Assembly: GCF_024055725.1 (NCBI RefSeq)
Contig: NZ_JAMXMX010000025.1
Span: 1-64,000 of the forward strand
Source: Actinoallomurus spadix
GTDB taxonomy: Bacteria; Actinomycetota; Actinomycetes; Streptosporangiales; Streptosporangiaceae
Length of the DNA: 64,000 nt
Direction of reading: 5' to 3'
Positions 2,339-21,460 of this stretch are shown piece after piece. How positions within the stretch are numbered: the stretch's first letter is position 1; the number at the start of each line of letters is the position of its first letter. The notes under the pieces were generated by a model that saw nothing but the letters and a program-made list of their open reading frames with translations, was not told the DNA's origin and ran no database searches. Position numbers and translations under genes: made by a program.

Positions 2339-3592
2339 TCATGTCAGCGCCGCCCCATCCGCTTCGGGCGCCGAATGCCGGTGCGGAGACGAGTCCCAGG
2401 CGACCGGCAGGCGGTCCACGCCGTACACCGCCGAGCGCTCGCGGGTCGGCACCTCGTCCGCGGCGACGGCCAGGCGCAGGTCCGGGAAACGGCCGAACAG
2501 CGCGGTCAGCGCGATGCGCAGCTCGGCCCGGGCGAGGTGCTGGCCGAGGCACTGGTGGACCCCGTGCCCGAAGGCGAGGTGCCCGACGGAGGAGCGGCCC
2601 AGGTCGAGGGCGTCCGGGTCGGCGAACCGCGCCGGGTCCCGGTTCGCGACCGGCAGCGCGAGCACGACCGTCTCACCGGCCGCGATGACCTGGCCGTCGA
2701 TCTCGACGTCGGCGAGCGCGGTCCGCCGCACGTCGAACTGCAGGATCGACAGGTAGCGCAGCAGCTCCTCGACCGCGCGCCCGGCGCCGTCGGCGTCCGC
2801 GCTCAGGCGCGCACGCTCGGCCGGGTTCGTGAGCAGCACGAACGTCCCCAGGGCGAGCATGCTCGACGTCGGCAGGTGCCCGGTGGCCAGCAGCACCATG
2901 CCGAGATTGGTGAGCTCCTCGTCGGTCAGGTCACCGGTGGCGACGGCGTGCGCGAGCAGGCCGTCCTCGGCCCCCATGACCGTGCCGGCGCGCAGCCGCC
3001 CGATGAGGCCGCGTACGGTCCCGGTGATCGACATGACGGCCTCGACCGCGCGTTCGGGAGTGGAGTCCAGGTCGTTCATCACCGCGGTGGCCGCCTGGAT
3101 CGCGTGCCGGTCCTCCGCGGGCACGCCCAGGAGTTCGCAGATGACCAGGGCCGGGACCGGTACGGCGAACGCCGTGACGAGGTCGGCGGGCGAGCCGCCG
3201 TCCGCCATCGCGTCGAGGGCCTGTCCGGTGTACCGGCGGATCGCCGGCGTGAGCTCCGCGACGCGCCGGGGCCCGAAGTGGGCGCTGAGCAGGCGGCGGT
3301 ACCGGGTGTGCTCGGGCGGGTCCATGTGCGGGAAGATGCCCGGTTCCGCCGGTGTCGGCCGCTCGTGCGCGCGTTCGCGGCCGACGGGCTGGTGGAGCAG
3401 CTCGCGCCGGGTGCTGAAGCGCGGGTCGGCGAGGATCGCTCGGGTGACGGAGTACCCGGTGGCCACCCAGCCGAGGTGCCCGTCCGGGTAGGCCAGGCGG
3501 CTGAGCGGGGGACGTCGCCGCAGCTCGACGGGTGGGTCGAAGGGGGTGGGCCGATCGGTCTCCAGCGGACTGGCCGCCCGGTCATCGATCAT
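2339..3592 (-). CDS. Cytochrome P450 with an atypical I-helix
   Basis: A 417-residue soluble bacterial class I P450 that should hydroxylate or otherwise oxidise a small molecule using ferredoxin-delivered electrons. The heme loop is FGHGVHQCLG with the thiolate Cys at about residue 348. The K-helix ExxR is EELLR, and the C-helix motif is MDPPEHTRYRRLL. The I-helix reads LLATGHLPTSSM: the acid-alcohol pair normally seen (AGxET or AGxDT) is replaced by L-P before the Thr. The gene is transcribed away from the FAD monooxygenase at 3843 across a 250-bp shared promoter region, so it is probably a tailoring enzyme of the adjacent biosynthetic run. No ferredoxin gene is adjacent. Confidence 0.9.
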   Translation of the reverse strand: MIDDRAASPLETDRPTPFDPPVELRRRPPLSRLAYPDGHLGWVATGYSVTRAILADPRFSTRRELLHQPVGRERAHERPTPAEPGIFPHMDPPEHTRYRRLLSAHFGPRRVAELTPAIRRYTGQALDAMADGGSPADLVTAFAVPVPALVICELLGVPAEDRHAIQAATAVMNDLDSTPERAVEAVMSITGTVRGLIGRLRAGTVMGAEDGLLAHAVATGDLTDEELTNLGMVLLATGHLPTSSMLALGTFVLLTNPAERARLSADADGAGRAVEELLRYLSILQFDVRRTALADVEIDGQVIAAGETVVLALPVANRDPARFADPDALDLGRSSVGHLAFGHGVHQCLGQHLARAELRIALTALFGRFPDLRLAVAADEVPTRERSAVYGVDRLPVAWDSSPHRHSAPEADGAALT

Positions 3593-3666
3593 CCGACCAC
3601 CTCCCGCCGGCCCCGGGCACGACCGCCCAGGGCGTGATCATCAGCGCGGCTGATTATGCATGACAA

Positions 3667-3700
3667 GTCGGAAAAAACACACCACTAGTCATTTCCGGAC
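3667..3700. promoter_or_regulatory. Inverted repeat in the divergent P450/FAD-monooxygenase promoter region
   Basis: GTCGGAAA (3667-3674) and TTTCCGGAC (3692-3700) form an imperfect inverted repeat across 17 bp, in the 250-bp gap between the divergent P450 and FAD monooxygenase genes. This AT-richer gap holds no supported gene and must carry both promoters. The repeat is a candidate operator; no regulator can be assigned. Confidence 0.35.
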
Positions 3701-3842
3701 CGCCCGATTAGCATCGGCGCTGACCGAACGGACACATCTTCTGACACGCAGGGCGAACGGGCCGTCGCGAATGTCGCCGGTCCGTGATCGGCGACCCGGC
3801 GTTCCCTCCATAGGCTCACTGTCCTCCCTTATAGAGGTTTTA

Positions 3843-5372
3843 ATGGCAGTTCGGCATGCTCAGGTGGCGGTTGTCGGCGGTGGACCGGTGGGGCTCATGC
3901 TCGCCTGCGAGGTGGCCCTCCACGACGTACCCGTGGTCGTCCTCGAACGACTGCCCGCGATCGAATGGCGCCCGAAGGCCGAGGGCATCACCGGCCGGGC
4001 CGTCGACATCATGGACCGTCGCGGCCTCATGCTCGGGGTCACCGAGACCCCCACCACGCCGCCGACGCCCGAGCAGCAGGCCCGCGTCGCCGCCGGTGAG
4101 CGGCGGCCCGACAGCCTGCTGCCCAAGGAGTTCCCCGGCGCGCGGCACTTCGCCAGCATGTTCCTGCTCCGCCCCGAGTCACCGGACCTGCTCGTGCCCC
4201 AGCAACTACTGGAGGAGGACCTGGCCCGGCGCGCCACGGAGCTGGGCGTCGACGTGCGCCGCGGCCACACGGTCACCGGGTACGCCCAGGATGACGACGG
4301 CGTACGCATCGACGTCGAGGGCCCCGACGGGCCGTACACGCTGGAGGCCGAGTGGCTGGCCGGCTGCGACGGCGGCCGGAGCACGATCCGGAAGCTGTCC
4401 GGCATCGCGTTCCCCGGCACGGACGGGATCACGACCGGGTACCGCGCCTTCGCCGAGATCGACGACCCCGACTTCCACCTGCCCGGGTGGTTCCGCAAGG
4501 ACGCCGGGCTCCTGGTGTACGAGGAGGGGCCGGCCCGGTTCATCACGCTCGAGTTCGACGGGCCACCGGTGAACCGGGACGCGCCGATCACGATCGAGGA
4601 GTTCCAGGGCGCGCTGCGGCGGCTGAGCGGCACCAAGGTGACGGTCACCTCGATCTCGAAGATCACCCGGTTCACCGACAACGCGCGGCAGGCGGAGACC
4701 TACCGCAGCGGGCGGGTCCTGCTCGTCGGCGACGCCGCGCACGTCCATTCGCATTGGAGCGGTCCAGGACTGCGGCTCGGGCTCGGCGACGCCGTCAACG
4801 TCGGCTGGAAGCTCGCCGCGGTCGCCCGCGGCCGGTGCGACGAGAGCCTGCTCGACACCTACACCTCCGAGCGGCACCCGATCGGCGCGCAGACCCTGGA
4901 GATCCAGCGCGCCTCGATCGCGCTGATGCGGCCCGGCCCGCACGTCGACGCGCTGCGCCGGCTGCTCCGCGAACTCCTCCTCCGCGACGAGGCGAACCGG
5001 CAGCTCACCGCGCTCGTCGACGACCTGCACATCTCCTACGCCATGGGAGACTCCGCGCCCGCCACCCCGCTGGTCGGCCGGTACAGCCCCGATCTGCACC
5101 TGCGGCGCGCCGACGGCACCGTACGTGTCGCGGAACTGCAGCGGAACGGCCGGGCGCTGCTGCTCGACCTGCGCTCCGACCCGGAACTGCGCGCCCTCGC
5201 CGCGCCCTGGTCCGACCGGGTCGACGTGGTGACCGCCGAGTGCGACGACGCACCGGCCGACGCCCTGCTCATCCGGCCGGACGGCTTCGTCGCCTGGAGC
5301 ACGCCCGCCGACCCGGCCTCGCTGCCGGACGCCCTCGCCCGCTGGTTCGGCGCGCCCGCCGCGACCGCCTGA
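3843..5372 (+). CDS. FAD-dependent aromatic monooxygenase (PHBH fold)
   Basis: A 509-residue flavin hydroxylase of the p-hydroxybenzoate-hydroxylase type common in aromatic polyketide clusters. The N-terminal Rossmann motif is VGGGPVGLMLACEVA, followed by VVVLER; the second FAD motif starts GDAAHVHSHW and ends GDAVNVGWKLAA. The usual P-x-G-G-Q-G core of that second motif is altered to SGPGLRLGLGDAV, so the pyrophosphate loop is atypical. The C-terminal thioredoxin-like domain of larger family members is present (about residues 400-509). I chose the ATG at 3843 because AGAGG lies 5 bp upstream and the flavin fold starts at once; upstream in-frame sequence is low in protein character. It opens the rightward biosynthetic run and probably hydroxylates the PKS-derived aromatic unit. 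Confidence 0.85.
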   Translation: MAVRHAQVAVVGGGPVGLMLACEVALHDVPVVVLERLPAIEWRPKAEGITGRAVDIMDRRGLMLGVTETPTTPPTPEQQARVAAGERRPDSLLPKEFPGARHFASMFLLRPESPDLLVPQQLLEEDLARRATELGVDVRRGHTVTGYAQDDDGVRIDVEGPDGPYTLEAEWLAGCDGGRSTIRKLSGIAFPGTDGITTGYRAFAEIDDPDFHLPGWFRKDAGLLVYEEGPARFITLEFDGPPVNRDAPITIEEFQGALRRLSGTKVTVTSISKITRFTDNARQAETYRSGRVLLVGDAAHVHSHWSGPGLRLGLGDAVNVGWKLAAVARGRCDESLLDTYTSERHPIGAQTLEIQRASIALMRPGPHVDALRRLLRELLLRDEANRQLTALVDDLHISYAMGDSAPATPLVGRYSPDLHLRRADGTVRVAELQRNGRALLLDLRSDPELRALAAPWSDRVDVVTAECDDAPADALLIRPDGFVAWSTPADPASLPDALARWFGAPAATA

Positions 5373-5433
5373 GACGCCCCCGCGAATCCCTGAGAGAGAC
5401 CAACCCAGCCGCTGCACGCCATCGGAGGCCGGA

Positions 5434-6279
5434 GTGAGTGACCCCAGCCTGACCACCTTGACCACGCTCCCCGCGTCGAGCCCGGTCGACGCCGCGATCG
5501 AGGTGGTCGACCGCGACGGAGCGGTGATCATCGAGGACTTCCTCGACGCCGGCACGCTCCGCGGGCTGTGGGCCGACCTCGGCCCGGACCTCGAACGCCA
5601 GGCGGACGGCGACGGACGCCTCGTCAGCGAGAAGACCCGCATCCTCCCCGGCCTGGTCCGCCGGTCCGCGCACTCGATGACCATCATGCGGCAGCCGCAC
5701 TTCCTCGGCCTCGCCCGGCACTTCCTGCAGCGCCCGGTGAAGGCGTGGCTCGGCGAGCAGCGCGTGGAGTTCGTCCCGACGATCCAGCTCGGCATCTCCC
5801 GGGCGATCCAGACCTGGCCCGGCGTGCCGATCCAGGCCCTGCACCGGGACGACACCGCCCACCTGCGCACCCACCCGGGCCCGGAGAGCCGGGTCCAGGT
5901 CATGGTGGCCGCGAGCGAGTTCAGCGCGCGCACGGGCGCGACCCGGGTGATCCCCGGCAGCCACCGGTGGGACGACGAACGCGCGCCCCGCGACGAGGAG
6001 GCGGTGCCCGCCGCGATGCGGACCGGCTCCGCGCTGCTGTGGCTCGGCAGCACCTACCACGGCGCCGGCGTCAACACCTCCGACGGGCCCCGCACCGGCC
6101 TGTCGTACGCCTACGACCTCGGCAACCTCCGCCAGGAGGAGAACCAGTACCTGTCCGTGCCGCTGGACGTCGTCCGCGGCTACCCCGAGGACATCCAGCG
6201 GCTCCTCGGCTACGAGGCGTGCCCGCCGATGTGCGGGCTCCACGAGCTGAGCGACCCGATGCTCCTGCTCCGGCGCTGA
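5434..6279 (+). CDS. Phytanoyl-CoA dioxygenase (PhyH) family Fe(II)/2-oxoglutarate oxygenase
   Basis: A 281-residue non-heme iron oxygenase of the PhyH family. The metal site is visible as HRD (ALHRDDTAHL) with the distal His in STYHGAGVN, and the 2-oxoglutarate-binding Arg follows in GPRTGLSYAY. It starts at GTG 5434, with GGAGG 5 bp upstream, 61 bp after the FAD monooxygenase, and is followed 12 bp later by the first KSIII-like gene, so it belongs to the same transcript. Relatives hydroxylate or desaturate unactivated carbons and, in secondary metabolism, sometimes form ring ethers. Here it could act on the polyketide or the sugar part. Confidence 0.85.
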   Translation: MSDPSLTTLTTLPASSPVDAAIEVVDRDGAVIIEDFLDAGTLRGLWADLGPDLERQADGDGRLVSEKTRILPGLVRRSAHSMTIMRQPHFLGLARHFLQRPVKAWLGEQRVEFVPTIQLGISRAIQTWPGVPIQALHRDDTAHLRTHPGPESRVQVMVAASEFSARTGATRVIPGSHRWDDERAPRDEEAVPAAMRTGSALLWLGSTYHGAGVNTSDGPRTGLSYAYDLGNLRQEENQYLSVPLDVVRGYPEDIQRLLGYEACPPMCGLHELSDPMLLLRR

Positions 6280-6291
6280 GAGGAGGGACGG

Positions 6292-7329
6292 ATGCGCACT
6301 CCGCACATGTACCTGCGCAGCATCGGCGTCCACCTGCCCCCGGTGGTCACCATCGAGACGGCCGTCGCCGAGGGCCGCTACCCGGCCGACGAGGTGGAGT
6401 ACTTCCGGCTCGGCGGCGCGGCGGTGGCCGGCGACGTGCCCGCCCCGGAGCTGGCGCTGCGCGCCGCCCGGCAGGCGTTCGACCGCTCCGGCGGGCTGTC
6501 CCCGCGCGACCTGGACCTCATGCTGTACTCCGACGTCTGGCACCAGGGACCGGAGGGCTGGGAGCCGCAGTACTACCTGCAGCAGCACCTGGTCGGCGGC
6601 GACGTCCTCGCCGTCGAGATGCGGCACGGCTGCTGCGGGATGTTCAGCGCGCTGCAGCTCACCGCCGGGTACCTGCGGCCCGACGGCGGCACCGCGCTGC
6701 TCGTCGGCGCCGACAACCACGGCACCCCGCTCGTCGACCGGTGGCGGATGATCGAGGGCGCCGTGATGGGCGACGGCGGATGCGCGCTGCTGGTCACGAC
6801 CGAGGGCGGGTTCGCCGAGCTGCGATCGGTCAACGTGGTCGTGCTGCCGGAGGCCGAGGCCGTCAACGACGGTGGCGTCCCGATGTTCCCGCCGGACGCG
6901 ACCGTGGCGCGGCCCCTGGACTTCGCCGCGCGCAACCGGGAGTTCCGCAAGCGGCTGATCAACGGCAACGGCGCCGACGTCATGCTCGCCATCCAGAAGA
7001 CCCTCCTCGAACTGGTCGACCGGACCCTCCAGGAGGCGGACGTCACCCTCGACGACGTCGCGCGCGTGGCCTTCCCGCACGGCCGCTGGGACGACCTGGA
7101 GCACCGGGGCGTCAACTGGCTCGGCCTGACGATGGCCGACACCACCTGGGACTACGGGGCGCAGATCGGGCACCTCGGGGTCGGCGACCAGTTCGTGGCC
7201 CTCGACCACCTCCTGGCGACCGGCGCGCTGGCCGCCGGCGACCACGTGCTGCTCGTCGGGCTCGGCGCCGGGACCACCATGGCCTGCGCCGTGCTGCGGA
7301 TCCTCGACATCCCGCCGGAGTACCGGTGA
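6292..7329 (+). CDS. KSIII-like acyltransferase (Cys-His-Asp type), copy 1
   Basis: A 345-residue thiolase-fold protein related to FabH-type ketosynthase III. The nucleophile is Cys114 in RHGCCGMFSA. The FabH Asn loop is replaced by GHLGVGDQ, placing His294 and Asp299 five apart; this is the arrangement described for the DpsC and CerJ group of KSIII-like acyltransferases rather than for condensing enzymes. In clusters with iterative type I PKSs, such enzymes carry the finished aryl acid from the ACP to an alcohol, amine or second carrier. It lies directly upstream of a paralogue and the PKS. By inference it moves the orsellinate-type acyl group; a starter or extender role cannot be excluded. 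Confidence 0.85.
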   Translation: MRTPHMYLRSIGVHLPPVVTIETAVAEGRYPADEVEYFRLGGAAVAGDVPAPELALRAARQAFDRSGGLSPRDLDLMLYSDVWHQGPEGWEPQYYLQQHLVGGDVLAVEMRHGCCGMFSALQLTAGYLRPDGGTALLVGADNHGTPLVDRWRMIEGAVMGDGGCALLVTTEGGFAELRSVNVVVLPEAEAVNDGGVPMFPPDATVARPLDFAARNREFRKRLINGNGADVMLAIQKTLLELVDRTLQEADVTLDDVARVAFPHGRWDDLEHRGVNWLGLTMADTTWDYGAQIGHLGVGDQFVALDHLLATGALAAGDHVLLVGLGAGTTMACAVLRILDIPPEYR

Positions 7330-7383
7330 GCGGAGCCTTCCGGGGATCGGAACCGGCCGGAGATCGGACGACGGGGAGGCGGC

Positions 7384-8445
7384 ATGGAGACGGCGGACAT
7401 GTACATCAGCGGGGTCGGGTCGTACGTCCCCGCCCGGGTGAGCGTCGAGGACGCCGTGGCGGCGGGCCGGTACACCACCGAGGAGGTCGGGCTGCACGGG
7501 CTCGCCTCGGTCGCCGTCGCCGGTGACGTCCCGGCGCCGGAGATGGCGCTGCGCGCGGCGCGCGCCGCGGTGGCCCGCAGCGGGCGGTCCCCCGCCGAAC
7601 TGGACCTGCTCCTGTACACCTCGACGTGGCACCAGGGCCCCGAGGGCTGGCCGCCGCAGTCGTACGTGCAGCGGCATCTCGTCGGCGACGGGGTCCTGTC
7701 CACCCAGCTGAAGCAGGGCTGCAACGGCATGCTCACCGCCCTGGAGCTGGCCGCGTGCCACCTGCGGGCCGTGCCGGGGCGCCGGGCCGCGCTGCTGGTC
7801 ACCGCCGACAACTACGGCACCCCGCTGGTCGACCGGTGGCGGATGCTGCCGGGGGCCGTCGCCGGCGACGCGGGCAGCGCGGTGGTGCTCGACACCGAGC
7901 CGGGGTTCGCGCGGCTGGCGTCGGTGTGCACGCTGTCGGTGTCGCAGGCCGAGGAGATGCACCGCTGCGCCGAGCCGCTGTTCCCGCCCGGCATCCTCGA
8001 GGGCCGCACGGTCGACTTCGCCGCGCACAACGACGAGTTCCGCCGGCGCGCCGTCACCGAGGGCGACGGCACGAAGGTGCTGGTGACCCTCGACGAGCGG
8101 ATGGCCGAGGCGATCGACCAGGCACTGGCGGAGGCCGGGATCAAACCGGGAGACGTGACGCGGGTGGCGTGCATGAACACCTCCCGCGAGATCGCCGACC
8201 AGATCTGCGAGATGCGGCTGGGCGTTCCGGCGTCCCGGTCGGCCTGGGAGTTCGGCCGGACCATCGGCCACTGCGGGGCGAGCGACCAGGTCCTCGCGCT
8301 GGAGCACCTGGTCCGCACCGGCGGCCTGGGCCCCGGCGACCACCTGCTGATGTTCGGCTTCGGACCCGGCGTGACGATCTCCGCCGCGGTCGTGGAGGTA
8401 CTCGAGTCGCCCGTCTGGGCGCGAGCACGGGGAGGGGATGCGTGA
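7384..8445 (+). CDS. KSIII-like acyltransferase (Cys-His-Asp type), copy 2
   Basis: A 353-residue paralogue of the preceding gene, with the same opening (GVGSYVPARV versus SIGVHLPPVV) and the same WHQGPEGW motif. The nucleophile is Cys113 (KQGCNGMLTA), with His296 and Asp301 in GHCGASDQ. The FabH-type PHQAN segment is CMNTSREI here, so the second active-site His of condensing ketosynthases is missing, whereas copy 1 has FPHGRW at that place. This suggests the two copies differ in acceptor or donor. GGAG at 8431-8434 precedes the next start, and the stop overlaps the PKS start as TGATG, indicating translational coupling. Confidence 0.85.
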   Translation: METADMYISGVGSYVPARVSVEDAVAAGRYTTEEVGLHGLASVAVAGDVPAPEMALRAARAAVARSGRSPAELDLLLYTSTWHQGPEGWPPQSYVQRHLVGDGVLSTQLKQGCNGMLTALELAACHLRAVPGRRAALLVTADNYGTPLVDRWRMLPGAVAGDAGSAVVLDTEPGFARLASVCTLSVSQAEEMHRCAEPLFPPGILEGRTVDFAAHNDEFRRRAVTEGDGTKVLVTLDERMAEAIDQALAEAGIKPGDVTRVACMNTSREIADQICEMRLGVPASRSAWEFGRTIGHCGASDQVLALEHLVRTGGLGPGDHLLMFGFGPGVTISAAVVEVLESPVWARARGGDA

Positions 8446-11400
8446 TGGGCCGACCGGCCGAGGCCATCGCGGTGATCGGGATCGGCTGCCGCCTGCCGGG
8501 CGGCGCCGGCTCGCCAGACGCCTACTGGGACCTGCTACGCGAGGGACGGGACGCCAGCGGGCCCGCGCCCGCGGACCGCTGGCGGGACTACGCCGACCGC
8601 GGCCCGTCGTACGCCGCGGCGGTACGCCGTATGGTCCCGCGCGGCAGCTTCCTCGACGACGTCGCGGGTTTCGACGCGGAGTTCTTCGGGCTGACGCCGC
8701 GGGAGGCGGAGCTGATGGACCCGCAGCAGCGCCTCACGATGGAGACCGCCTGGGAGGCCCTCGAACACGCCGGGGTGTCGCCGGACGCGCTCGCCGGCAC
8801 GGACGCGGGCGTGTACGTCGGCGTCTGCACCGGCGACTACGGGAACCGGCTGCTGGAGGACCTGCCCGACATCGAGGCGTGGACCGGGATCGGCGCGGCC
8901 ACCTGCGCGGTCGCCAACCGCGTGTCGTACTCCCTCGACCTGCGCGGCCCGAGCCTGGCCGTGGACACCGCGTGCTCGGCGTCGCTGGTCGCGGTGCACC
9001 TGGCCGTGCAGGCGCTGCGGGCCGGGGAGACGGACGTGGCGCTGGCCGGCGGGGTGAACCTCATCCTGTCCCCCGGCCAGACGCTCACCCTGGACGCGGC
9101 GGGCACGCTGGCGCCGGACGGGCGCAGCAAGTCCTTCGACGCCTCGGCCGACGGGTACGGGCGGGGCGAGGGCGCGGCCGTGGTCGTGCTCAAGCGCCTC
9201 TCCGACGCCGTACGGGACGGCGACCGGATCCTCGCGACCATCCGCGGCAGCGCGGTGAACCAGGACGGCCGCACCGTGGGCATCATGGCGCCGTGCGGCC
9301 AGGCGCAGGAGCACGTTATGCGCCGCGCGCTGCGGCAGGCGGGCATCGAGCCGGACACGGTCGGGTACGTCGAGGCGCACGGCACCGGAACGGCGGTCGG
9401 CGATCCGCTGGAGGCCGCCGCGCTGGGCGCCGTGTACGGGACCGGCCGGCCCTCGGACCGGCCATGCCTGATCGGCTCGGCCAAGTCGAACATCGGCCAC
9501 CTGGAGGGCGCCGCCGGCGTCGCCGGGCTGGTCAAGGCCATCCTCGCCCTGCACTACGGCGAGCTCCCGCCGAGCCGGCTCGACGCGCCGACCCCGGCCG
9601 TCGACTGGGCGGGCGCCGGGCTGCGGGTCGCGGAGGCGCCGACGCCGTGGCCCGACGCCGGGCACCCGCGCCGGGCCGCCGTCTCCGCCTTCGGCTACGG
9701 CGGGACCGTCGCCCACGTGGTCCTCGAGGAGGCGCCGCCGGCCCGGCCCGCCGAGGAGGGAACGGCGGGCCGGCTGTTCCCCGTCTCCGCCGCGTCGCGG
9801 GCGGCGCTGCGGCAGGCCGCCGGGAACCTCGCCGGCACCGCCGGTGACCTGCGCGCGGCCGACGTCGGGCACACGCTCGCACTGCGCCGGGCGCACCTGG
9901 CCGAACGCGCGGTCGTCGCGGCCGGCGACCCGGCCGCACTCACCACCGGGCTGCGCGCCCTCGCCGCCGGCACCCCGCACGCCTCGGTGACCACCGGGCG
10001 GGTCCTCACCGACCCCGGCCCCGGGCCCGTGTTCGTGTTCTCCGGGCACGGCTCGCAGTGGGCCGGGATGGGCCGGGAGCTGCTGGCGGCCGAGCCGGCC
10101 TTCGCGGCGGTGATCGACGAGCTGGAGCCGGTGTTCGCGGACGAGATCGGGTTCTCGCCCCGTGAGGTGCTGACCGGCGGCGAGCTCACCGAGGTCGACC
10201 GGATCCAGACCATGATCTTCGCGATGCAGCTCGGCCTGGCCGAGCTGTGGCGCGCGTACGGCGTGCGCCCGCACGCGGTGATCGGGCACTCGGTCGGGGA
10301 GATCGCCGCCGCCGTGACGGCCGGGGCGCTGAGCCGCCTGGACGGCGCCCGGCTGATCTGCCGCCGGTCCCGGCTGCTGCGGCGGGTCGCCGGACGCGGC
10401 GCGATGGCCATGGTGCAACTGCCGTTCGCCGACGCGGCCGCGCGGCTGGCCGGCCGTACGGACGTGGTCGCCGCGATCGCGTCCTCGCCCGGCTCGACGG
10501 TCGTCTCCGGCGACCCGGACGCCGTCGCCGAGGTCCTGTCCGGCTGGCTCGAGGAGGGCGTTCCGGCGCGCCGCGTCGCCTCGGACGTGGCGTTCCACGG
10601 GCCGCAGATGGACCCGCTGCTGGCCGAGCTGACCGCCGCCGCGGCAGACCTCGCGCCCCGCACCCCCGGCCTGCGGGTGTACTCGACGGCGCTGGACGAC
10701 CCGCGCGGGGAGCCTGGTTTCGACGGCGCGTACTGGGCGGCCAACCTGCGCCGGCCGGTGCGCCTGGCCGACGCGGTCACCGCCGCGGCGGCCGACGGGT
10801 ACCGCGCCTTCATCGAGGTCTCCCCGCACCCCGTCGTCACCCACTCGGTGCTGGAGACACTGAGCGTGACCGGCCACGAGGACGTCTTCGTCGGCGCGAC
10901 GCTGCGCCGGAACCGGCCCGCACGGGACACCCTCCTGGCGGGCGTGGCCGCCGCGCACTGCGCCGGCCTGGACGTCGACTGGCGGCGGCTACAGCCGTCC
11001 GGCGGACCCGTCGCGCTGCCGACGTACCCGTGGCAGCACCGCAGGCACTGGCGCGCGCCCTCGGCCCCCGACGCCGGCGGGCGCGGCCACGACCCGGACA
11101 CGCACACGCTGCTCGGCGACGGCGTCGAACTCGCGGGCACCGACGTCCGGCTCTGGCGTACCGCCCTGGACGACCAGACCCGGCCTTACCCCGGCAGCCA
11201 CGCCATCGAGGGCGTCGAGATCGTGCCCGCCGCCGTGCTGGCGGTGACCTTCCTCGCCGCCTCGGGCGGCCGGGCGCTCGACGCGGTGACGATGTCGGCG
11301 CCGCTCCTGACCGCCGACCGCCGCGAGGTCCAGGTCGTACGGCAGGGGGCGCGGCTGCGGCTGGCCGCCCGCACGGCCGGCGACCCGGACGCCGCCTGGC

Positions 11401-12194
11401 AACTGATCGCCACCGCGGAGGTGCCCACGGCCGTGGCCGACCCGGGAGACGGGCCGGAGCCGCCCGCGCTGCCGCTCACACCGGCGGACCCCGGCTCGGT
11501 CACGCGGCGGCTCGCCGCCGTCGGCGTGCCCGGCACCGGCTTCGACTGGACGGTCGAGGAACTCCTGTCCGGCCACGGCGCGCTGCGCGCCCGCGTACGG
11601 TGCGGGCCCTCGGCCACCTGGGCGCCCGTCCTGGACGCGGTCATGTCGGTCGCGCCGAGCGCGTTCCCCGGCGATCCGCTGCTGCGGATGGTCACGCACG
11701 TCGACCGGCTCGCCGTGGCCGGTGAGCCACCGGACACGGTGCACATCGACGTCTGGCTCGACCCCGACCGCGCCGACATCGTCCAGGTCCGGGTGACCGA
11801 TCCCGCCGGCGTGGTCGTCGCCCGGCTCGACGGGCTGCGGTACCCGGTGATCGACGCGCCCGCCGCCCGGGAGAACGGCGCCGGTGGCGCGGGCCCCACC
11901 GAGTCGTTCGCCGAGCTCGGGCCGGAGGAGCTGCGCGCCTTCCTGCTCCGGGAGGTCGGCGCGCAGATCGCCACGGAGATGCGCCTGGATCCCGCCGACC
12001 TGTCGCCGCACCGCCCGCTGGTCGAGCAGGGCCTGGACTCGGTGCTGACCGTGGTCGTACGCCGCCGGCTGGAGAAGCGGTTCCGCTGCTCGCTGCCGAC
12101 CACGCTCCTGTGGCGGCAGCCGACCATCGTCGCGGTCTCCGATTACATCGCCGGGCTGGTGTCCGCGCCGAACGGGAGCGCCGATGCGGGCTGA
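8445..12194 (+). CDS. Iterative type I polyketide synthase, KS-AT-DH-ACP (orsellinate-synthase-like)
   Basis: A 1249-residue single-module PKS. KS occupies about residues 6-430 with Cys177 in DTACSASL, His312 in EAHGTGT and His352 in KSNIGH. AT follows (about 525-830) with Ser616 in GHSVGE and VAFH at the selectivity position, consistent with malonyl-CoA. The DH-like domain (about 885-1150) keeps HxxxGxxxxP from His919 and an Asp in VLDAVMS. ACP is last, with the carrier Ser1199 in GLDSV. There is no KR, ER or thioesterase. KS-AT-DH-ACP without KR is the layout known for bacterial orsellinic acid synthases (AviM and CalO5 types), which condense one acetyl and three malonyl units; KR-containing relatives make 6-methylsalicylate. 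Lack of a TE fits release by the KSIII-like neighbours. An in-frame GTG directly precedes the ATG. Confidence 0.92.
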   Translation: MGRPAEAIAVIGIGCRLPGGAGSPDAYWDLLREGRDASGPAPADRWRDYADRGPSYAAAVRRMVPRGSFLDDVAGFDAEFFGLTPREAELMDPQQRLTMETAWEALEHAGVSPDALAGTDAGVYVGVCTGDYGNRLLEDLPDIEAWTGIGAATCAVANRVSYSLDLRGPSLAVDTACSASLVAVHLAVQALRAGETDVALAGGVNLILSPGQTLTLDAAGTLAPDGRSKSFDASADGYGRGEGAAVVVLKRLSDAVRDGDRILATIRGSAVNQDGRTVGIMAPCGQAQEHVMRRALRQAGIEPDTVGYVEAHGTGTAVGDPLEAAALGAVYGTGRPSDRPCLIGSAKSNIGHLEGAAGVAGLVKAILALHYGELPPSRLDAPTPAVDWAGAGLRVAEAPTPWPDAGHPRRAAVSAFGYGGTVAHVVLEEAPPARPAEEGTAGRLFPVSAASRAALRQAAGNLAGTAGDLRAADVGHTLALRRAHLAERAVVAAGDPAALTTGLRALAAGTPHASVTTGRVLTDPGPGPVFVFSGHGSQWAGMGRELLAAEPAFAAVIDELEPVFADEIGFSPREVLTGGELTEVDRIQTMIFAMQLGLAELWRAYGVRPHAVIGHSVGEIAAAVTAGALSRLDGARLICRRSRLLRRVAGRGAMAMVQLPFADAAARLAGRTDVVAAIASSPGSTVVSGDPDAVAEVLSGWLEEGVPARRVASDVAFHGPQMDPLLAELTAAAADLAPRTPGLRVYSTALDDPRGEPGFDGAYWAANLRRPVRLADAVTAAAADGYRAFIEVSPHPVVTHSVLETLSVTGHEDVFVGATLRRNRPARDTLLAGVAAAHCAGLDVDWRRLQPSGGPVALPTYPWQHRRHWRAPSAPDAGGRGHDPDTHTLLGDGVELAGTDVRLWRTALDDQTRPYPGSHAIEGVEIVPAAVLAVTFLAASGGRALDAVTMSAPLLTADRREVQVVRQGARLRLAARTAGDPDAAWQLIATAEVPTAVADPGDGPEPPALPLTPADPGSVTRRLAAVGVPGTGFDWTVEELLSGHGALRARVRCGPSATWAPVLDAVMSVAPSAFPGDPLLRMVTHVDRLAVAGEPPDTVHIDVWLDPDRADIVQVRVTDPAGVVVARLDGLRYPVIDAPAARENGAGGAGPTESFAELGPEELRAFLLREVGAQIATEMRLDPADLSPHRPLVEQGLDSVLTVVVRRRLEKRFRCSLPTTLLWRQPTIVAVSDYIAGLVSAPNGSADAG

Positions 12195-13047
12195 GCGCAC
12201 GGTCGCGGGCCCCGCCGTCGATCTCGCCCGGCGGGCCGACGCGGACCGGATCGCGCGGCTCGCGACCCGCTGCCGGCTCGTCCTGCTGGAGATGATCCAC
12301 CGGGCGGGGTCCGGGCACGCCGGCTCGTCGCTGTCCTGCGCGGACATCGTCAGTGTGCTGAGGTTCGACCAGCTGGACCGGCCTCCCGGCGGGCCCGGTG
12401 ACGTGTTCGTCCTGTCCAAGGGGCACGCGGCGCCGGCCTGGTACGCCGCGCTGGTCGTCGGTGGGGACCTGCCCGCCGGGGAGGTCGGCACCCTGCGGGC
12501 TTTGGACAGCCGGTTGCAGGGACACCCGGACCGTACGCGGCTGGGGCTGGTCGACGTCAGCACCGGCGCGCTCGGCCAGGGCCTGTCGGTGGCCGTCGGC
12601 CGGGCCCTCGCCCGGCGGCTGCACGGCCGCGACTCCACGGTGTACTGCCTGCTCGGCGACGGCGAATGCCAGGAGGGCCAGGTGTGGGAGGCGTTCCTGT
12701 ACGCCGGCGCGCGCCGAGTGCCCGGCCTGGTGGCGATCATCGACCACAACGGCAGCCAGAGCGACGGCGCGGTCGCCGACATCCTGCCGCTGTACCCGCT
12801 GCCGGAGAAGCTGCGGGCGTTCGGCTGGCACGTCGCGGAGGTGGACGGCCACGACCACGGCGAGCTGCGCGACGCACTGCGGCGGCGCGACCGCGACGCG
12901 CCCACGGTGATCATCGCGCACACCCGCAAGGGGCGCCTCGGCCCCGACCGCGTCCTGCTCGACGGCAGCCACAGCGACCTGCCCTCGGCGGCGGAGTACG
13001 CGGCCGCGGTCGACTACCTGGAGACCCTTCTGGAGACCGGACCATGA
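12184..13047 (+). CDS. Transketolase, N-terminal (TPP pyrophosphate-binding) subunit
   Basis: A 287-residue protein covering only the N-terminal half of a transketolase. It has the TPP-domain landmarks GSGHAGSSLS, SKGHAAPAWYA, the GDGE(CQEGQ) diphosphate/Mg2+ motif and the paired Asn in IDHNGSQSDG. It overlaps the PKS stop by 11 bp and its own stop overlaps the next start as ATGA, so the two halves should be made together. Split transketolases transfer a two-carbon ketol unit between sugar phosphates; finding both halves inside a polyketide cluster suggests a dedicated supply or branching step for the sugar part rather than central metabolism. Confidence 0.9.
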   Translation: MRAERTVAGPAVDLARRADADRIARLATRCRLVLLEMIHRAGSGHAGSSLSCADIVSVLRFDQLDRPPGGPGDVFVLSKGHAAPAWYAALVVGGDLPAGEVGTLRALDSRLQGHPDRTRLGLVDVSTGALGQGLSVAVGRALARRLHGRDSTVYCLLGDGECQEGQVWEAFLYAGARRVPGLVAIIDHNGSQSDGAVADILPLYPLPEKLRAFGWHVAEVDGHDHGELRDALRRRDRDAPTVIIAHTRKGRLGPDRVLLDGSHSDLPSAAEYAAAVDYLETLLETGP

Positions 13048-14042
13048 CCGAGCGGAGCGAGGGAGTCGAGAGCACGGCGGTCACGGGTCGTCCCTGCGGC
13101 GACGGAGGAGCCCCGAAGTCGACGCGGGACTGGTTCGGCGCCGCGCTGGTGGAGATCGCCCGCGAGTACGACCACGTCGTCGTGGTGAACTGTGACCTCG
13201 CCAAGGCCACCCGGACGCTGCCGTTCAAGGAGGAGTTCCCCGACCGGTTCTTCGAGTGCGGCATCGCGGAGGCCAACGCCATCGGCGTGGCCGCCGGGCT
13301 GGCGCAGGAGGGGTTCCGGCCGTTCGTCGCGAGCTTCGGGCACTTCCTGACCGGGAAGTTTCTGGAGATCTTCCAGACGGTCGGGCTCAACGACGCGGGC
13401 GTGGTCCTCGTCGGCACCCACGCCGGGCTGGCGATCGGTCGGGACGGCCCGACCCAGATGGGGCTGCGGGACCTGGCGCTGATGCGGACCCTGCCGAACG
13501 TCGGGGTGTTCCAGCCCGCCGACGGCGCCGAGACCTGGCAGATGATGGCGCACCTGGCGACCGACCGGCGACCCGCGTACCTGCGGCTGTGCCGGCAGCC
13601 GCTGCCGGAGGCGCACGCCGACGGGTATCGGTTCCGGTTCGGCGTCCCGCCCGTGCTCCGGGCGGGCGCGGACGTCGCCGTGTTCGCGATGGGCGGCACC
13701 GTGCCGGTCGCGGTCGAGGCGGCCGACCGGCTCGCCGCGGACGGGCTCGCGCCGACCGTGGTGAACGTGTCGTCGCTGCCCGTGGACCGCGCGGCGGTGG
13801 AGCGCCTCGCCGGCGGGCACCGGCAGGTACTGGTCGTCGAGGACCACTACGCCGTGGGCGGTCTCGCCGACGAGCTGGCCCGGATCGTGCTCGGTCTCCC
13901 TGATCGGCCTCGCTTCGACGTGCTCGCCGTACCCGACTACGGGCAGGCGGGGCCGCCCGAGGACCTGTACCGGCGGTACCGGCTCGACGCGGAGGGGATC
14001 GCGGCGCACATCGCCGCGCTCCTCCAGGAAGCCCCGGCGTGA
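13044..14042 (+). CDS. Transketolase, C-terminal (pyrimidine-binding and C) subunit
   Basis: A 332-residue partner of the preceding gene. It contains the pyrimidine-binding domain with the TPP-activating Glu in CGIAEANAIGVAAG and the transketolase C-terminal domain from about residue 200 (VAVFAMGG, VVEDHYAVGGL). The first 30 residues are a poorly conserved hydrophilic extension; the ATG at 13044 is fixed by the ATGA overlap with the N-subunit. Its stop overlaps the GT20 start as another 4-bp junction. By comparison, avilamycin clusters use a pair of TPP-enzyme subunits to attach a two-carbon branch to a sugar, so a similar branching role is one possibility; plain pentose/heptose interconversion is the other. 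Confidence 0.9.
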   Translation: MTERSEGVESTAVTGRPCGDGGAPKSTRDWFGAALVEIAREYDHVVVVNCDLAKATRTLPFKEEFPDRFFECGIAEANAIGVAAGLAQEGFRPFVASFGHFLTGKFLEIFQTVGLNDAGVVLVGTHAGLAIGRDGPTQMGLRDLALMRTLPNVGVFQPADGAETWQMMAHLATDRRPAYLRLCRQPLPEAHADGYRFRFGVPPVLRAGADVAVFAMGGTVPVAVEAADRLAADGLAPTVVNVSSLPVDRAAVERLAGGHRQVLVVEDHYAVGGLADELARIVLGLPDRPRFDVLAVPDYGQAGPPEDLYRRYRLDAEGIAAHIAALLQEAPA

Positions 14043-15481
14043 CACCGCCCGAGACAGCCGCCGACCCGAGGATGGCGACCGGAGTGAGACTGATCGTCTG
14101 CAGCAACAGCGCGCCGCGGTGGCAGGACGGCGCCGGCCTGCTGCCCCGCTCCCCCGGCGGCCTGGTCCCGCTGCTGGCCACCCTGCTGGGCGAGCACGGC
14201 GGCGACTGGGTGTGCACGATGCCCGCCGACGGCCCGCCCGGCGCGGAGCCCGTCGAGGTGACGCGGCTGCCCGGCGACGTCACCCTGCACCGGCTGCGCC
14301 TGCCCCCGGCGGTCGTGGAGCAGCACTACGAGAAGGTCGGCGTACGGGTGCTGCTGTGGCTGTTCCACTACCTGCTCGACACCCCGCGGCAGCCCGGCGA
14401 GGGGCTCGCGGAGGCGTGGGCCGGGTACGAGGCCGTCAACCGGGCGTACGCCGACCGGGTGGCGACGCTGCTGACGGGCTCGGCGGAGGAGTTCGTCCTC
14501 GTCAACGACCATCACCTGTTCCTCGTCCCAGAGCTGCTCGGGCGGCGCGCGGACCGCCGGGGCCGGGTGGCGTTCTTCCAGGGCCTGCCGTGGTGCGAGC
14601 CGGAGTACTTCGGCGTGCTGCCCGCGTACATCCGCGACCGCATCCTCACCGGCCTGCTCGGCGCGGATGTGGTCGGCTTCCACTGCACCCGGTGGGCGCG
14701 TGCCTTCCTGGCCTGCTGCGCGCGCTACCTGCCCGGCTGCGCGGTCGACGACGGCGGCGCGACGTACGGCGGGCACCGGACCCGCGTGACCGTCGCGCCG
14801 TTCCCGCTGGACGTCGCGACGGTCGAGCGGCTGCGCGCGGAGCCGGCCACCGCGGAGTGGCGGACGCGCCTGGATCGGGAGGCCGGCGGCCGGCGCGTGC
14901 TCGTCCGCGCCGACCGCATCGACCTGTGGAAGAACCTGCCGCGCGGCTTCGCCGCGTACCGGAGCCTGCTCGACCGCGACCCCGGTCTGGCCGGGGAGTG
15001 GTGGTTCTGCGCGGTGGCGACCCCGCCGGGCCGTCCCACCGAGCGCACCCGGGCGCTCCAGCGCGAGTGCGAGGACCTGGTCGCCGACCTGAACGAGCGG
15101 TTCGGCCGGCCCGGCCGGCCGGCCGTCTCGCTGATCTATCCGGACCTGGCCACGACGCGCAACTGCGTGGTGGCCGCCCTGTCGGGGGCCGACCTGACGC
15201 TCGTCAACCCGACCTTCGACGGGATGAACCTGGTCGCCAAGGAGGCCTTGTACCTCGGCGAACGCGGGCCGCTGCTGCTGTCCGTCAACGCGGGCGCCTA
15301 CGAGGGGCTCGCCGGGCACGTCACTCCGGTGCAGCCGTTCGACGTCGAGGCCACCGCCTCGGCGCTGCGGGACGCGATGACCCGCCGTACGGCCCCGGAG
15401 GAGCGGGCGGCGGCACGGCGGCTGCTGCGCGACCAGGACGCGACCGACTGGCTGAACCGAATGATGGGAGCGGAACGTTGA
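14039..15481 (+). CDS. Trehalose-6-phosphate-synthase-like glycosyltransferase (GT20)
   Basis: A 480-residue GT-B protein of the OtsA family. The donor-site landmarks are kept: RADRIDLWKNLPRGFAAY corresponds to the Arg/Lys pair that grips the nucleotide diphosphate, and NPTFDGMNLVAKEA matches the DGMNLVAKE loop. The acceptor side differs: the family HDYHL is NDHHL, and the segment usually written HIPFP reads FQGLPW, losing the His. Thus a retaining nucleotide-sugar-dependent transfer (or pseudoglycosidic coupling, as by VldE in validamycin) is likely, with a different acceptor from glucose-6-phosphate. It starts at GTG 14039 (overlapping the preceding stop), with later in-frame ATG 14072. No trehalose-phosphate phosphatase gene is present nearby. 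Confidence 0.85.
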   Translation: MTPPETAADPRMATGVRLIVCSNSAPRWQDGAGLLPRSPGGLVPLLATLLGEHGGDWVCTMPADGPPGAEPVEVTRLPGDVTLHRLRLPPAVVEQHYEKVGVRVLLWLFHYLLDTPRQPGEGLAEAWAGYEAVNRAYADRVATLLTGSAEEFVLVNDHHLFLVPELLGRRADRRGRVAFFQGLPWCEPEYFGVLPAYIRDRILTGLLGADVVGFHCTRWARAFLACCARYLPGCAVDDGGATYGGHRTRVTVAPFPLDVATVERLRAEPATAEWRTRLDREAGGRRVLVRADRIDLWKNLPRGFAAYRSLLDRDPGLAGEWWFCAVATPPGRPTERTRALQRECEDLVADLNERFGRPGRPAVSLIYPDLATTRNCVVAALSGADLTLVNPTFDGMNLVAKEALYLGERGPLLLSVNAGAYEGLAGHVTPVQPFDVEATASALRDAMTRRTAPEERAAARRLLRDQDATDWLNRMMGAER

Positions 15482-16284
15482 GGACGACCGAGGTCACCAC
15501 GCGGTACGGACGCGTCAGCCGGCTGGCCGACCAGGCCGCCGCAGGGGCGTACCTGTTCGCGGAGCACACGATCGAGCCCGGGCAGGCCACCCCCTTCCGT
15601 ACCCATGCCCGCGACCACCGGACGTTCGTCGTCATCCAGGGGCGGGTCAGGCTGGAGACCGCCCGCGACGACGGCGGAACCGAGTCGTCGGTGTACGACC
15701 GCCTGAGCGGCTGGCACGCCCTCCCCGGCTGCGTCTACCGGATCGTGGGCGCCGGCGCCGGGCCGGCGGTCGTCATCGAGGCCGGGTCCGTGCTGGGCGA
15801 GACCCGGGAGGCGACCGGGCCCGACGTCCCGGACGCGGTGGCCTGCCGCTGCCCGGACATCTCCGACTACACGGTGCACAAACCCTGGGGCAGCGAGGTC
15901 TGGTACACCCAGAACCTGCCCGACCTCCCGTACGCCCTGAAACGCATCCGGATGACCGAGGGACACCAGTCGTCGCTGCAGTCCCACCGGCAGAAGCTGG
16001 AGACCAACTACGTCATCGAGGGAGAGGCGACCGTGCTGAGCGGAGCCATGGCCCCGGAGGATCTGACCGCGGTGATCGACGTGGCGAGCCTGACCACCAC
16101 CGTCCACCGTCCCCGCTCCGGCTGGACCAACCCGCCGGGCGAACTCCACCGGGTGATCGCGCGGACCGACTACACCTCCATCGAGATCTCCACCCCCGAA
16201 CTCGACGACGTCATCCGCTGGCAGGACGACGCCGGGCGCGGGCACGGCCGGATCGACTCCGAGCACGTGGGCGGCCGGTCATGA
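15478..16284 (+). CDS. Double-cupin protein, phosphomannose-isomerase type C-terminal domain
   Basis: A 268-residue protein with two cupin barrels. The first (about 10-100) includes THARDHRTFVVIQG. The second (about 125-225) has KPWGSEVWY, then SLQSHRQKLETNYVIEGEA, which is the metal-binding signature of type II phosphomannose isomerase C-terminal domains. I place the start at TTG 15478: GGGAG lies 7 bp upstream and the TTGA overlap matches the coupled style of this operon; no ATG or GTG fits as well. It precedes the SIS isomerase with an ATGA overlap. A sugar-phosphate isomerase or epimerase role is likely, but the exact substrate is not evident. Confidence 0.75.
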   Translation: MRTTEVTTRYGRVSRLADQAAAGAYLFAEHTIEPGQATPFRTHARDHRTFVVIQGRVRLETARDDGGTESSVYDRLSGWHALPGCVYRIVGAGAGPAVVIEAGSVLGETREATGPDVPDAVACRCPDISDYTVHKPWGSEVWYTQNLPDLPYALKRIRMTEGHQSSLQSHRQKLETNYVIEGEATVLSGAMAPEDLTAVIDVASLTTTVHRPRSGWTNPPGELHRVIARTDYTSIEISTPELDDVIRWQDDAGRGHGRIDSEHVGGRS

Positions 16285-16922
16285 GCCTCGCCGAGACGAT
16301 CGGGCTGTACCTCAGCGAGAAGCGCCGGATCCTGGACGCCTTCCCCGTCTCGGTGCTGGAGCGCGCCGCCGAGATGCTGTTCGCGACCTACGACCAGGGC
16401 GGCATCGTGTACGCCATGGCCAACGGCGGGAACGCCGGCACCCTCGACCACTTCTACTGCGATTTCAAGCACCATCCGTTCGTGACGGAGGACAAGACCC
16501 GGCCGCTGCCGGCCGGGGTCCGCCGCCTGTCCTTCGTCAACCTGTGCGGGTCGGCCGCCGAGCTCACCGGACTCGTCAACGACATCGGCTTCGAGGACAT
16601 GTTCGCCGCGGCCCTGGCCCCCGTCGTCACCCCGAAGGACCTGGTGATGGCCTACTCCGGCAGCGGCAACTCCGCCAACGTGACGAAGGCCCTCGACGTG
16701 GCCGTCGCCGCGGGCGCCAGGACGTTCGCCATGACGAAGGGCGACGGCGGCCGGTGCCGGGACCTGGCCGAGGTATGCCTGGTCGTGCCCGGTACGTCCC
16801 GGTTCCCCGGTCAGGTCGGCAAGAACGACAACAACTTCCACTTCGAGGACCTCATGCTGTCGGTCAACCACATCCTCGTCGGTCTCCTGAAGGAACGCGT
16901 CGCCGCCCACGCCGCCTCGTAG
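16281..16922 (+). CDS. SIS-domain phosphosugar isomerase, GmhA-related
   Basis: A 213-residue single-SIS protein resembling sedoheptulose-7-phosphate isomerase (GmhA). The phosphate-binding loops are visible as ANGGNAGTLDHF and YSGSGNSANVTKAL, and the C-terminal helix is FEDLMLSVNHILVGLL. Compared with E. coli GmhA as I remember it, the catalytic Glu (FAEEL) becomes Asp (YCDF) and the catalytic His in the last helix is Met, so the chemistry or substrate may differ. It is the last gene of the rightward run. With a transketolase pair upstream, a heptose or other C7/C6 ketose-aldose conversion is a reasonable guess. A nested inverted repeat starts 19 bp after its stop. Confidence 0.82.
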   Translation: MSLAETIGLYLSEKRRILDAFPVSVLERAAEMLFATYDQGGIVYAMANGGNAGTLDHFYCDFKHHPFVTEDKTRPLPAGVRRLSFVNLCGSAAELTGLVNDIGFEDMFAAALAPVVTPKDLVMAYSGSGNSANVTKALDVAVAAGARTFAMTKGDGGRCRDLAEVCLVVPGTSRFPGQVGKNDNNFHFEDLMLSVNHILVGLLKERVAAHAAS

Positions 16923-16940: not shown

Positions 16941-16987
16941 GGCCAGTGGCAGGATGCTTGCGACAGTCGCCATCCAGGCCACTGGCC
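16941..16987. promoter_or_regulatory. Nested inverted repeat / operator copy A upstream of the GlxA regulator
   Basis: Perfect 10-bp arms 16941-16950 (GGCCAGTGGC) and 16978-16987 enclose a second dyad, GCGAC-A-GTCGC at 16960-16970. From 16948 the sequence also matches the operator-like repeats found upstream of gap (GGC--GAT--TTGCG, then CAGGCCACT). It lies 21 bp before the regulator start, so autoregulation is likely. It may also act as the terminator of the biosynthetic operon. Confidence 0.6.
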
Positions 16988-17007
16988 GAGCGCCGCAGGA
17001 GGACCCG

Positions 17008-19918: not shown

Positions 19919-19979
19919 ATCCATGCGAGGTCAGTTCTCCGTCTCAGCGCACTCGCGCGCGGAAAAGGGAGGTCTCGGT

Positions 19980-21407: not shown

Positions 21408-21460
21408 GCCGGGCCCGCACCACCGCCGGCCCGTACGTCCGAGATCTCCCGGGAGCGCAC

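Follow-up and report, generated by a model that had tools for sequence, protein, structure and literature searches.

A candidate gene cluster joining an orsellinate-type polyketide cassette to a trehalose-type sugar module in Actinoallomurus spadix

An eleven-gene run present in four genomes

The window analyzed here covers positions 1 to 64,000 of a contig of 116 kb (NZ_JAMXMX010000025.1) from Actinoallomurus spadix, which has a genome of 8.02 Mb and shares its genus with A. soli (G004) and A. iriomotensis (G002). Positions 2339-16922 of the window hold eleven genes, a divergently transcribed cytochrome P450 gene on the minus strand followed by ten genes on the plus strand, in which a cassette built around an orsellinate-type polyketide synthase (PKS) is joined to a set of sugar genes. 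We have middling confidence that these genes constitute a single cluster for an oxidized orsellinate attached to an unusual sugar in trehalose-type linkage. An initial annotation, made from the letters of the window, had described them as one coupled run, and comparison with other genomes bears this out. The entire run, with its order kept, is found in four genomes belonging to two genera, namely those of the window, A. soli, A. iriomotensis, and Actinomadura alba. In all four of these fused loci, the PKS gene overlaps the transketolase gene that follows it by 11 bases. The ratio of nonsynonymous to synonymous substitution rates (dN/dS) lies between 0.07 and 0.40 in 33 of 33 comparisons of the eleven genes between the window and the other three genomes, with the cupin gene having the highest values. 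Given that the same set of genes and the same 11-base overlap occur in four of four loci, it is likely that the eleven genes function jointly.

Every gene named in the initial annotation is present where it was placed, as judged by Pfam matches and by an NCBIfam scan of ten of the eleven (the PKS not being among them), which returned no PhyH match. The aromatic half consists of the P450 gene (2339..3592, minus strand; PF00067) and, all on the plus strand, genes for a group A flavin aromatic hydroxylase (FMO; approximately 3660..5372, with an uncertain start; FAD_binding_3 and Rng_hyd_C), a PhyH-type Fe(II)/2-oxoglutarate oxygenase (5434..6279; PF05721), two ChlB3-like acyltransferases, KSIIIa (6292..7329) and KSIIIb (7384..8445), and an iterative type I PKS (8445..12194). 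The sugar half, also on the plus strand, encodes the N-terminal subunit of a transketolase, which carries the thiamine diphosphate (ThDP) domain (TKN; 12184..13047; PF00456), its C-terminal subunit (TKC; 13044..14042; PF02779/PF02780), a GT20 glycosyltransferase (from a GTG at 14039 or an ATG at 14072 to 15481; PF00982), a double-cupin protein whose second half is mannose-6-phosphate-isomerase-like (15478..16284), and an SIS-domain isomerase that is a divergent relative of GmhA (16281..16922). Gaps of 61, 12, and 54 bases separate FMO from PhyH, PhyH from KSIIIa, and KSIIIa from KSIIIb, respectively. From there on the genes overlap, by 1 base at KSIIIb/PKS, 11 bases at PKS/TKN, and 4 bases at TKN/TKC, at TKC/GT20 (assuming the GTG start; the ATG start gives a 29-base gap), and at each of the last two junctions. 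Apart from the PKS/TKN overlap, the spacings in the fused loci shift with the gene starts, as at TKN/TKC (-4, -4, -4, and +70). Scans for promoters, terminators, and repeats added nothing to this picture. The sugar genes had been described as not being of the deoxysugar kind, the kind that works through nucleoside diphosphate (NDP)-4-keto sugars; consistent with this, no NDP-glucose 4,6-dehydratase or aminotransferase is among the Pfam matches of the eleven genes.

The SIS protein, being the rarest of the eleven, was used as the marker for relatives. Close copies were found in five of 345 genomes of the order (expect value, E <= 1e-25), and there was no further carrier in the samples of the class, the phylum, and the Pseudonocardia family (1 of 394, 1 of 396, and 1 of 297 genomes, respectively; E <= 1e-30), where the single carrier is the query's own genome or the centre genome. 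Four SIS loci were recovered in a pattern-limited scan with one genome per species, and all scans together yielded six carrier genomes. Plasmids and phages gave only distant homologues of the SIS protein (82 plasmid records, all below 60% identity), and the cupin gave four plasmid matches of about half length and none in phages. Neighboring genes were inspected at one of the SIS matches and one of the cupin matches. On a Sinorhizobium plasmid (L044 6809-9492), genes for a tagatose-6-phosphate kinase and a DegT aminotransferase enclose one for a cupin that shares 40% identity with the second half of its counterpart in the window, an arrangement that hints at sugar-phosphate work for this type of cupin. 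Among the fused clusters, the P450 is 87-90% identical to that of the window in all three of the others, and the A. soli PKS and TKC each have an extra stretch. Proteins of the A. alba cluster share 80-90% identity with those of the window, compared to 78% for a control gene (a P-type ATPase); one control gene is too few to prove transfer between genera.

The two halves apart from one another

Matches to KSIIIa of any kind occur in 70 of 342 genomes (E <= 1e-70), including the four fused ones, and another genus of the family has orthologues that are 82-87% identical. We took 16 stretches around KSIIIa and 20 more around most of these loci, leaving out a lone KSIIIa copy (G189:C501). In ten genomes of that other genus, P450, FMO, PhyH, KSIIIa, KSIIIb, and PKS genes stand in this order with no sugar genes beside them: TKN, TKC, GT20, cupin, SIS, and TreT-type trehalose synthase have no match (E <= 1e-5) in the 29-60 kb retrieved at the ten cassettes. 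Best-segment identities to the window across all ten are 78-84% for P450, 72-86% for FMO, 83-88% for PhyH, 82-87% for both KSIIIa and KSIIIb, and 77-85% for the PKS. Since the cassette stands alone in these genomes, its acyltransferases need another acceptor there.

The genes that flank the cassette are partly shared between the two forms. An aldo-keto reductase gene adjoins the P450 gene in nine of the ten sugar-less cassettes (one being only a fragment), and a second P450 gene and an epimerase/short-chain dehydrogenase-reductase-family gene follow the PKS gene in five of the ten (assigned by Pfam in one copy each). Further out, the flanks are mostly different, with G188 and G147 sharing theirs and G179 and G155 sharing part. 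In A. iriomotensis and A. alba, genes for the aldo-keto reductase and the second P450 are likewise found next to the fused cluster. No second P450 is found in 40 kb of A. soli, and the window has no such aldo-keto reductase, the best match in its genome being 64% identical. At 29447-30652 (minus strand), the window encodes a P450 that is 74% identical to the second P450 of the A. iriomotensis and A. alba flanks and of the five sugar-less cassettes, and this is possibly a displaced pathway gene.

Less complete arrangements also occur. G171 has KSIIIa and PKS genes without the remaining genes of the cassette. Lone KSIIIa paralogues (81-83% identical) with no PKS in 20 kb are found at L081, L082, and L083, and in the first two the neighboring gene belongs to a family that, by reading alone, resembles major-facilitator exporters. 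G012 and G219, two other genomes of the family, have distant, compact KSIIIa-ACP-KSIIIb-PKS sets (58-65% identical) with a discrete acyl carrier protein (ACP) that the window cluster lacks; in cluster orientation, sets of this make-up span L084 9032-15236 and L085 (read in reverse) 9206-15411.

The sugar module likewise occurs with other partners. In Pseudonocardia sp. TRM90224, TKN, TKC, cupin, and SIS genes stand together, and their products are 63, 67, 60, and 80% identical, respectively, to those of the window. The SIS gene is followed there by a gene for a TreT-type trehalose synthase (PF21269, 6e-36) and then by nonribosomal peptide synthetase (NRPS) and PKS genes, after which come genes that by reading alone appear to encode an MbtH-size protein, a thioesterase-like protein, and an exporter-like protein. 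In G172, cupin and SIS genes accompany one whose product is 57% identical to the Pseudonocardia TreT. The cupin and SIS proteins of these two TreT loci are 56-80% identical to those of the window. Thus, cupin and SIS genes adjoin a gene for a trehalose-type glycosyltransferase in six of six carriers, GT20 in four and TreT in two, although the six represent three architectures and are a small sample. It is chiefly this association with transferases of two families that catalyze the same kind of reaction that suggests a trehalose-like linkage. Because the aromatic half and the sugar half each occur apart, we regard the set as a merger of two separable modules and not as one indivisible pathway, the cassette standing alone in ten genomes and the sugar module standing elsewhere with NRPS-PKS genes. 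The 11-base overlap shared by the fused loci favors a single fusion of the two modules.

Residues of the encoded enzymes

The open reading frame that holds the PKS gene (7626-12194) has Pfam matches to KS domains, AT, PKS_DH_N, and PP-binding, with a weak Thiolase_N match over the KS, and none to KR or TE. This is the AviM-type arrangement, KS-AT-PT/DH-ACP without KR, SAT, or TE. The domain architecture of AviM and its catalytic PT-domain residues, H949 and D1104, are described in the literature (PMC9135731). In the PT/DH-like domain of the window PKS, we find His919 (in HAIEGVEIVP) and Asp1064, which were assigned by motif rather than by structure and are spaced 145 residues apart, compared to 155 in AviM. 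We therefore classify the PKS as orsellinate-type by its AviM architecture, with orsellinic acid as its predicted product. For both KSIIIa and KSIIIb, the closest solved chain is ChlB3, whose catalytic triad consists of Cys113, His296, and Asp301, with roles assigned to each (PMC9573744). This Cys-His-Asp triad is kept in both proteins in four of four fused clusters by alignment, and the pairing of an orsellinate-type PKS with KSIII-like acyltransferases that had been noted at the outset is thus upheld. ChlB3 hands its acyl group to an ACP, and none of the eleven genes encodes a discrete one. The nearest solved chains are the oxygenase 4k5r for the FMO and SwnH1 for the PhyH protein. For the latter, we set aside an orthosomycin-type oxygenase role, as none of its 42 solved-chain matches is so named.

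Both transketolase halves best match solved chains of a split transketolase, 6yak (the N-terminal component) for TKN and 6yaj (the C-terminal chain from Carboxydothermus) for TKC. The ThDP-binding and pyrimidine/C-terminal subunits are encoded side by side, which is the arrangement of a split enzyme. The genome holds other transketolase matches, one of them in a 659-residue open frame (35% identical), so the TKN/TKC pair is an extra one. The cupin has Cupin_2 and MannoseP_isomer matches that fall just under the curated cut-offs, in an overlapping open reading frame, and its Pseudonocardia orthologue passes the Cupin_2 cut-off. Its sequence matches no solved structure closely (best E 0.53), and a structure prediction from a 5-row alignment has a mean predicted local distance difference test score (pLDDT) of 45. 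It is a putative sugar-phosphate isomerase or epimerase. The best NCBIfam and PDB matches of the SIS protein are to GmhA and phosphoheptose isomerases, with a score of 60 bits against an NCBIfam gmhA cut-off of 209. A phosphate loop (SGSGNSANV) is present, and His57, Asp61, Glu189, and His197 are invariant in six of six carriers. These putative metal or catalytic positions presumably correspond to GmhA His61, Glu65, Gln172, and His180, respectively; the pairing is ungapped and made by eye, in a region that the printed alignment gaps.

The genome encodes four GT20 proteins. The one in the cluster is 39% identical to a paralogue among them, and its nearest solved chain is 5lqd, an alpha,alpha-trehalose-phosphate synthase from S. 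venezuelae. The first of the two arginines that bind the acceptor in OtsA (Arg9 in the E. coli enzyme) is replaced, SNR having become SNS in four of four fused clusters, and so is the second (Arg300), with PSR having become PPG and an arginine one place later in all four. On the donor side, the His of the HxP[WF] motif is replaced by Gly (FQGLPW, four of four), whereas it is kept in all three GT20 paralogues of the same genome. Residue roles described for OtsA include an NDP-binding Arg, a Lys, and DGMNLVxKE, and in the M. thermoresistibile enzyme (MtrOtsA) Arg18 and Arg324 bind the acceptor and His168 contacts the donor (PMC6879718). The cluster GT20 keeps the donor diphosphate-binding Arg, Lys, and DGMNLVxKE; the equation of HxP[WF] with His168 was made in this analysis. 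Given that the acceptor arginines and the donor-side His are gone while the nucleotide-binding residues are kept, this enzyme probably does not make trehalose-6-phosphate. It belongs to the trehalose-phosphate synthase family, but its active site is not that of an ordinary member. These changes would leave open an acceptor without a phosphate, or even the aromatic itself.

Proposed pathway, alternatives, and known systems

We infer the following route by analogy with related enzymes. The cluster would have arisen by the merging of two mobile sub-clusters, one aromatic and one for the sugar, a mode of cluster growth that has been described before (PMC4256081). In the aromatic module, the PKS would build an orsellinic-acid-type acid that its PT/DH-like domain cyclizes, as the AviM architecture suggests; the flavin hydroxylase, PhyH, and P450 would oxidize it, and the two acyltransferases, to judge from their triads, would take the acyl group off the PKS. 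In the sugar module, the two-subunit transketolase would produce a ketose phosphate, which the GmhA-like SIS protein and the cupin would convert to an aldose; our leading guess for this sugar is a heptose derived from sedoheptulose-7-phosphate. The GT20, with its acceptor and donor pockets changed, would then link the aldose with a common NDP-sugar at the anomeric carbon, in the manner of a trehalose synthase, and either one of the acyltransferases or the GT20 itself would couple the aromatic to the sugar. A pseudo-trehalose-like or heptose product had been suggested from the outset. It is still the natural guess, and its trehalose part is strengthened by the six of six carriers; the sugar and the covalent join are predictions here.

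A wider generalization, which we offer tentatively and think on the unlikely side when taken whole, is that transketolase-(glycosyltransferase)-cupin-SIS is a portable cassette for non-reducing disaccharides with a non-glucose sugar, most likely a heptose, and that the GT20 evolved toward a new donor/acceptor pair. Actinoallomurus and Actinomadura would then attach oxidized orsellinate to give a new class of aromatic-acylated trehalose analogues, and the ten sugar-less genomes would make the matching sugar-free compound.

Several observations weigh against a single pathway of this kind. In ten genomes, the aromatic cassette has no sugar genes beside it, and only three of eight genomes of the genus have close SIS copies. 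G172 has no transketolase match in 40 kb. Pfam matches of the eleven conserved genes include no phosphatase, transporter, discrete ACP, or regulator. The residue losses in the GT20 are at odds both with a plain phosphosugar as acceptor and with plain NDP-glucose as donor, and the SIS substrate may differ from that of GmhA, since Asp and Glu stand where GmhA has Glu and Gln. Finally, the trees give no firm division between fused and sugar-less cassettes. In a rooted three-gene tree, the fused loci are next to the sugar-less ones with a support of 59 and A. alba groups with five sugar-less loci; in an unrooted six-gene tree, the four fused loci stand apart from the ten with a support of 55; and a tree constrained to a single fused clade came back with the unconstrained topology and so gave no extra information.

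It is conceivable, although we consider it unlikely, that two independent pathways share one transcript, with a sugar-free orsellinate product on one side and a separate disaccharide or solute on the other. Each half does occur without the other, and KSIIIa and KSIIIb show that the cassette is well conserved (82-87%) with or without sugar genes, but both genera retain the fusion, down to the same 11-base overlap, and the sugar module of Pseudonocardia again lies beside an assembly line, which is where a sub-cluster for decorating a product should lie. Quite doubtful is a scheme in which the flavin hydroxylase yields a quinone, the split transketolase supplies it with a C2 unit, and the cupin, SIS, and GT20 proteins merely tailor what results. 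Rifamycin offers a precedent, in which Rif15a and Rif15b, a two-subunit transketolase encoded by overlapping genes, place a C2 unit on a quinone ahead of a P450 step (PMC6002545), and the window cluster has both a flavin hydroxylase and a P450. The Pseudonocardia transketolase pair, however, sits with cupin, SIS, and TreT genes, and L025 has no FMO, PhyH, or KSIII match (E 1e-8). Furthermore, of four sugar-phosphate contacts of human transketolase, two Arg and one His are kept in the window pair by alignment, with the fourth changed from Ser to Thr.

A known metabolite, from a cluster already described in sources beyond those searched, seems improbable. Our search covered the open-licence literature rather than cluster databases, and in it no title or abstract start describes this gene set, whether under the gene set itself, heptose and sedoheptulose pathways, Actinoallomurus clusters, VldE/OtsA, orsellinate with ChlB3, trehalose, Actinomadura, or Nonomuraea. 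From Nonomuraea, one paper reports a predicted 6-methylsalicylate/dimethylsalicylate/orsellinate cluster with no assigned product. The parts of the window cluster are of known kinds; no title or abstract start matched the set as a whole or a GT20 altered at these residues.

We give very little credence to the idea that the cluster makes a pseudosugar as in validamycin biosynthesis and that its GT20 is a pseudo-glycosyltransferase of the VldE type. The GT20 family fits, and VldE is among the solved chains that the protein matches, but the VldE residues that contact the ligand, Arg12, His182, and Arg326 (PMC3441724), have no equivalents in the cluster GT20 when it is aligned with its paralogues. 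A cyclitol route is also disfavored because the carriers G016 (93% complete), G345, and G172 have one dehydroquinate (DHQ)-synthase match each, presumably AroB, and a true candidate locus of that type lies elsewhere, at G000:C50. That locus (L106 8499-15521) has, by Pfam, a second GT20, a DHQ-synthase-type cyclase, a class III aminotransferase, an alcohol dehydrogenase, and an RmlD/epimerase, and start sequences point to the same kind of locus at G002:C16 (L107) and G004:C4 (L108). We take L106-L108, from three Actinoallomurus genomes, as a candidate cluster for a validamycin-like aminocyclitol, with a contig end cutting the copy in the window's genome.

If the fused cluster does make a glycosylated orsellinate, a rare sugar module is paired in nature with quite different scaffolds, orsellinate and NRPS-PKS products, and a GT20 with both pockets changed extends trehalose-type chemistry to new sugars. 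The loci offer a clear case of cluster evolution through sub-cluster fusion in which fused and unfused forms can be compared. The ten sugar-less relatives predict the aglycone, and comparing fused with unfused strains could reveal the product by mass.

Two further features of the window lie downstream. Directly after the cluster, at 16954-17955, is a gene for an AraC-type regulator with a DJ-1/PfpI domain that is 96% identical in A. soli and has no match in the 40 kb surrounding the A. iriomotensis and A. alba clusters. As it is found beside the cluster only in A. soli, it is probably outside the cluster. At 19923-22717 and 22835-23704, a gene for a type 2A encapsulin shell with a cyclic nucleoside monophosphate (cNMP)-binding domain overlaps a terpene synthase gene and is followed by a methyltransferase gene. 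These are conserved in A. soli (83-94%), and the locus looks like an encapsulin/terpene locus of the 2-methylisoborneol type.

Among known systems, the closest to the aromatic half are the orsellinate and 6-methylsalicylate sub-clusters represented by AviM (avilamycin), CalO5 (calicheamicin), and ChlB1-ChlB3-ChlB6 (chlorothricin). Like AviM, the window PKS is an iterative KS-AT-PT-ACP enzyme without a KR match, and its acyltransferases are ChlB3-like with the triad. Unlike these sub-clusters, the eleven genes include no ChlB2-like discrete ACP, halogenase, O-methyltransferase, or deoxysugar gene, and have instead a flavin hydroxylase, PhyH, and P450 in a cassette of their own. On the sugar side, the TreT loci share the cupin, the SIS protein, and an adjacent trehalose-type transferase (plus the split transketolase in Pseudonocardia), but have TreT in place of GT20, by Pfam in Pseudonocardia and by identity in G172. 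They also differ from the window in that the former has NRPS-PKS partners and the latter no transketolase match in its 40 kb. Rif15a/Rif15b, compared by description rather than sequence, resemble the window pair in forming a transketolase of two subunits, in being encoded by overlapping genes, and in belonging to actinomycete secondary metabolism, whereas the window pair has a sugar isomerase, a cupin, and a trehalose-type transferase as neighbors. GmhA, a sedoheptulose-7-phosphate isomerase, has in common with the window SIS protein its fold, the phosphate loop, and both His at places equivalent by eye, but the latter scores far under the gmhA cut-off and has Asp61 and Glu189 where the E. coli enzyme has Glu65 and Gln172. 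VldE/ValL of validamycin biosynthesis are likewise GT20 family members in secondary metabolism, with ligand contacts that the cluster GT20 has not kept. The donor of the Streptomyces trehalose-phosphate synthase is GDP-glucose (PMC5247666). With OtsA, the cluster GT20 shares the residues that bind the donor diphosphate, and it differs at the equivalents of Arg18, Arg324, and His168 (MtrOtsA numbers), which are replaced in all four fused clusters.

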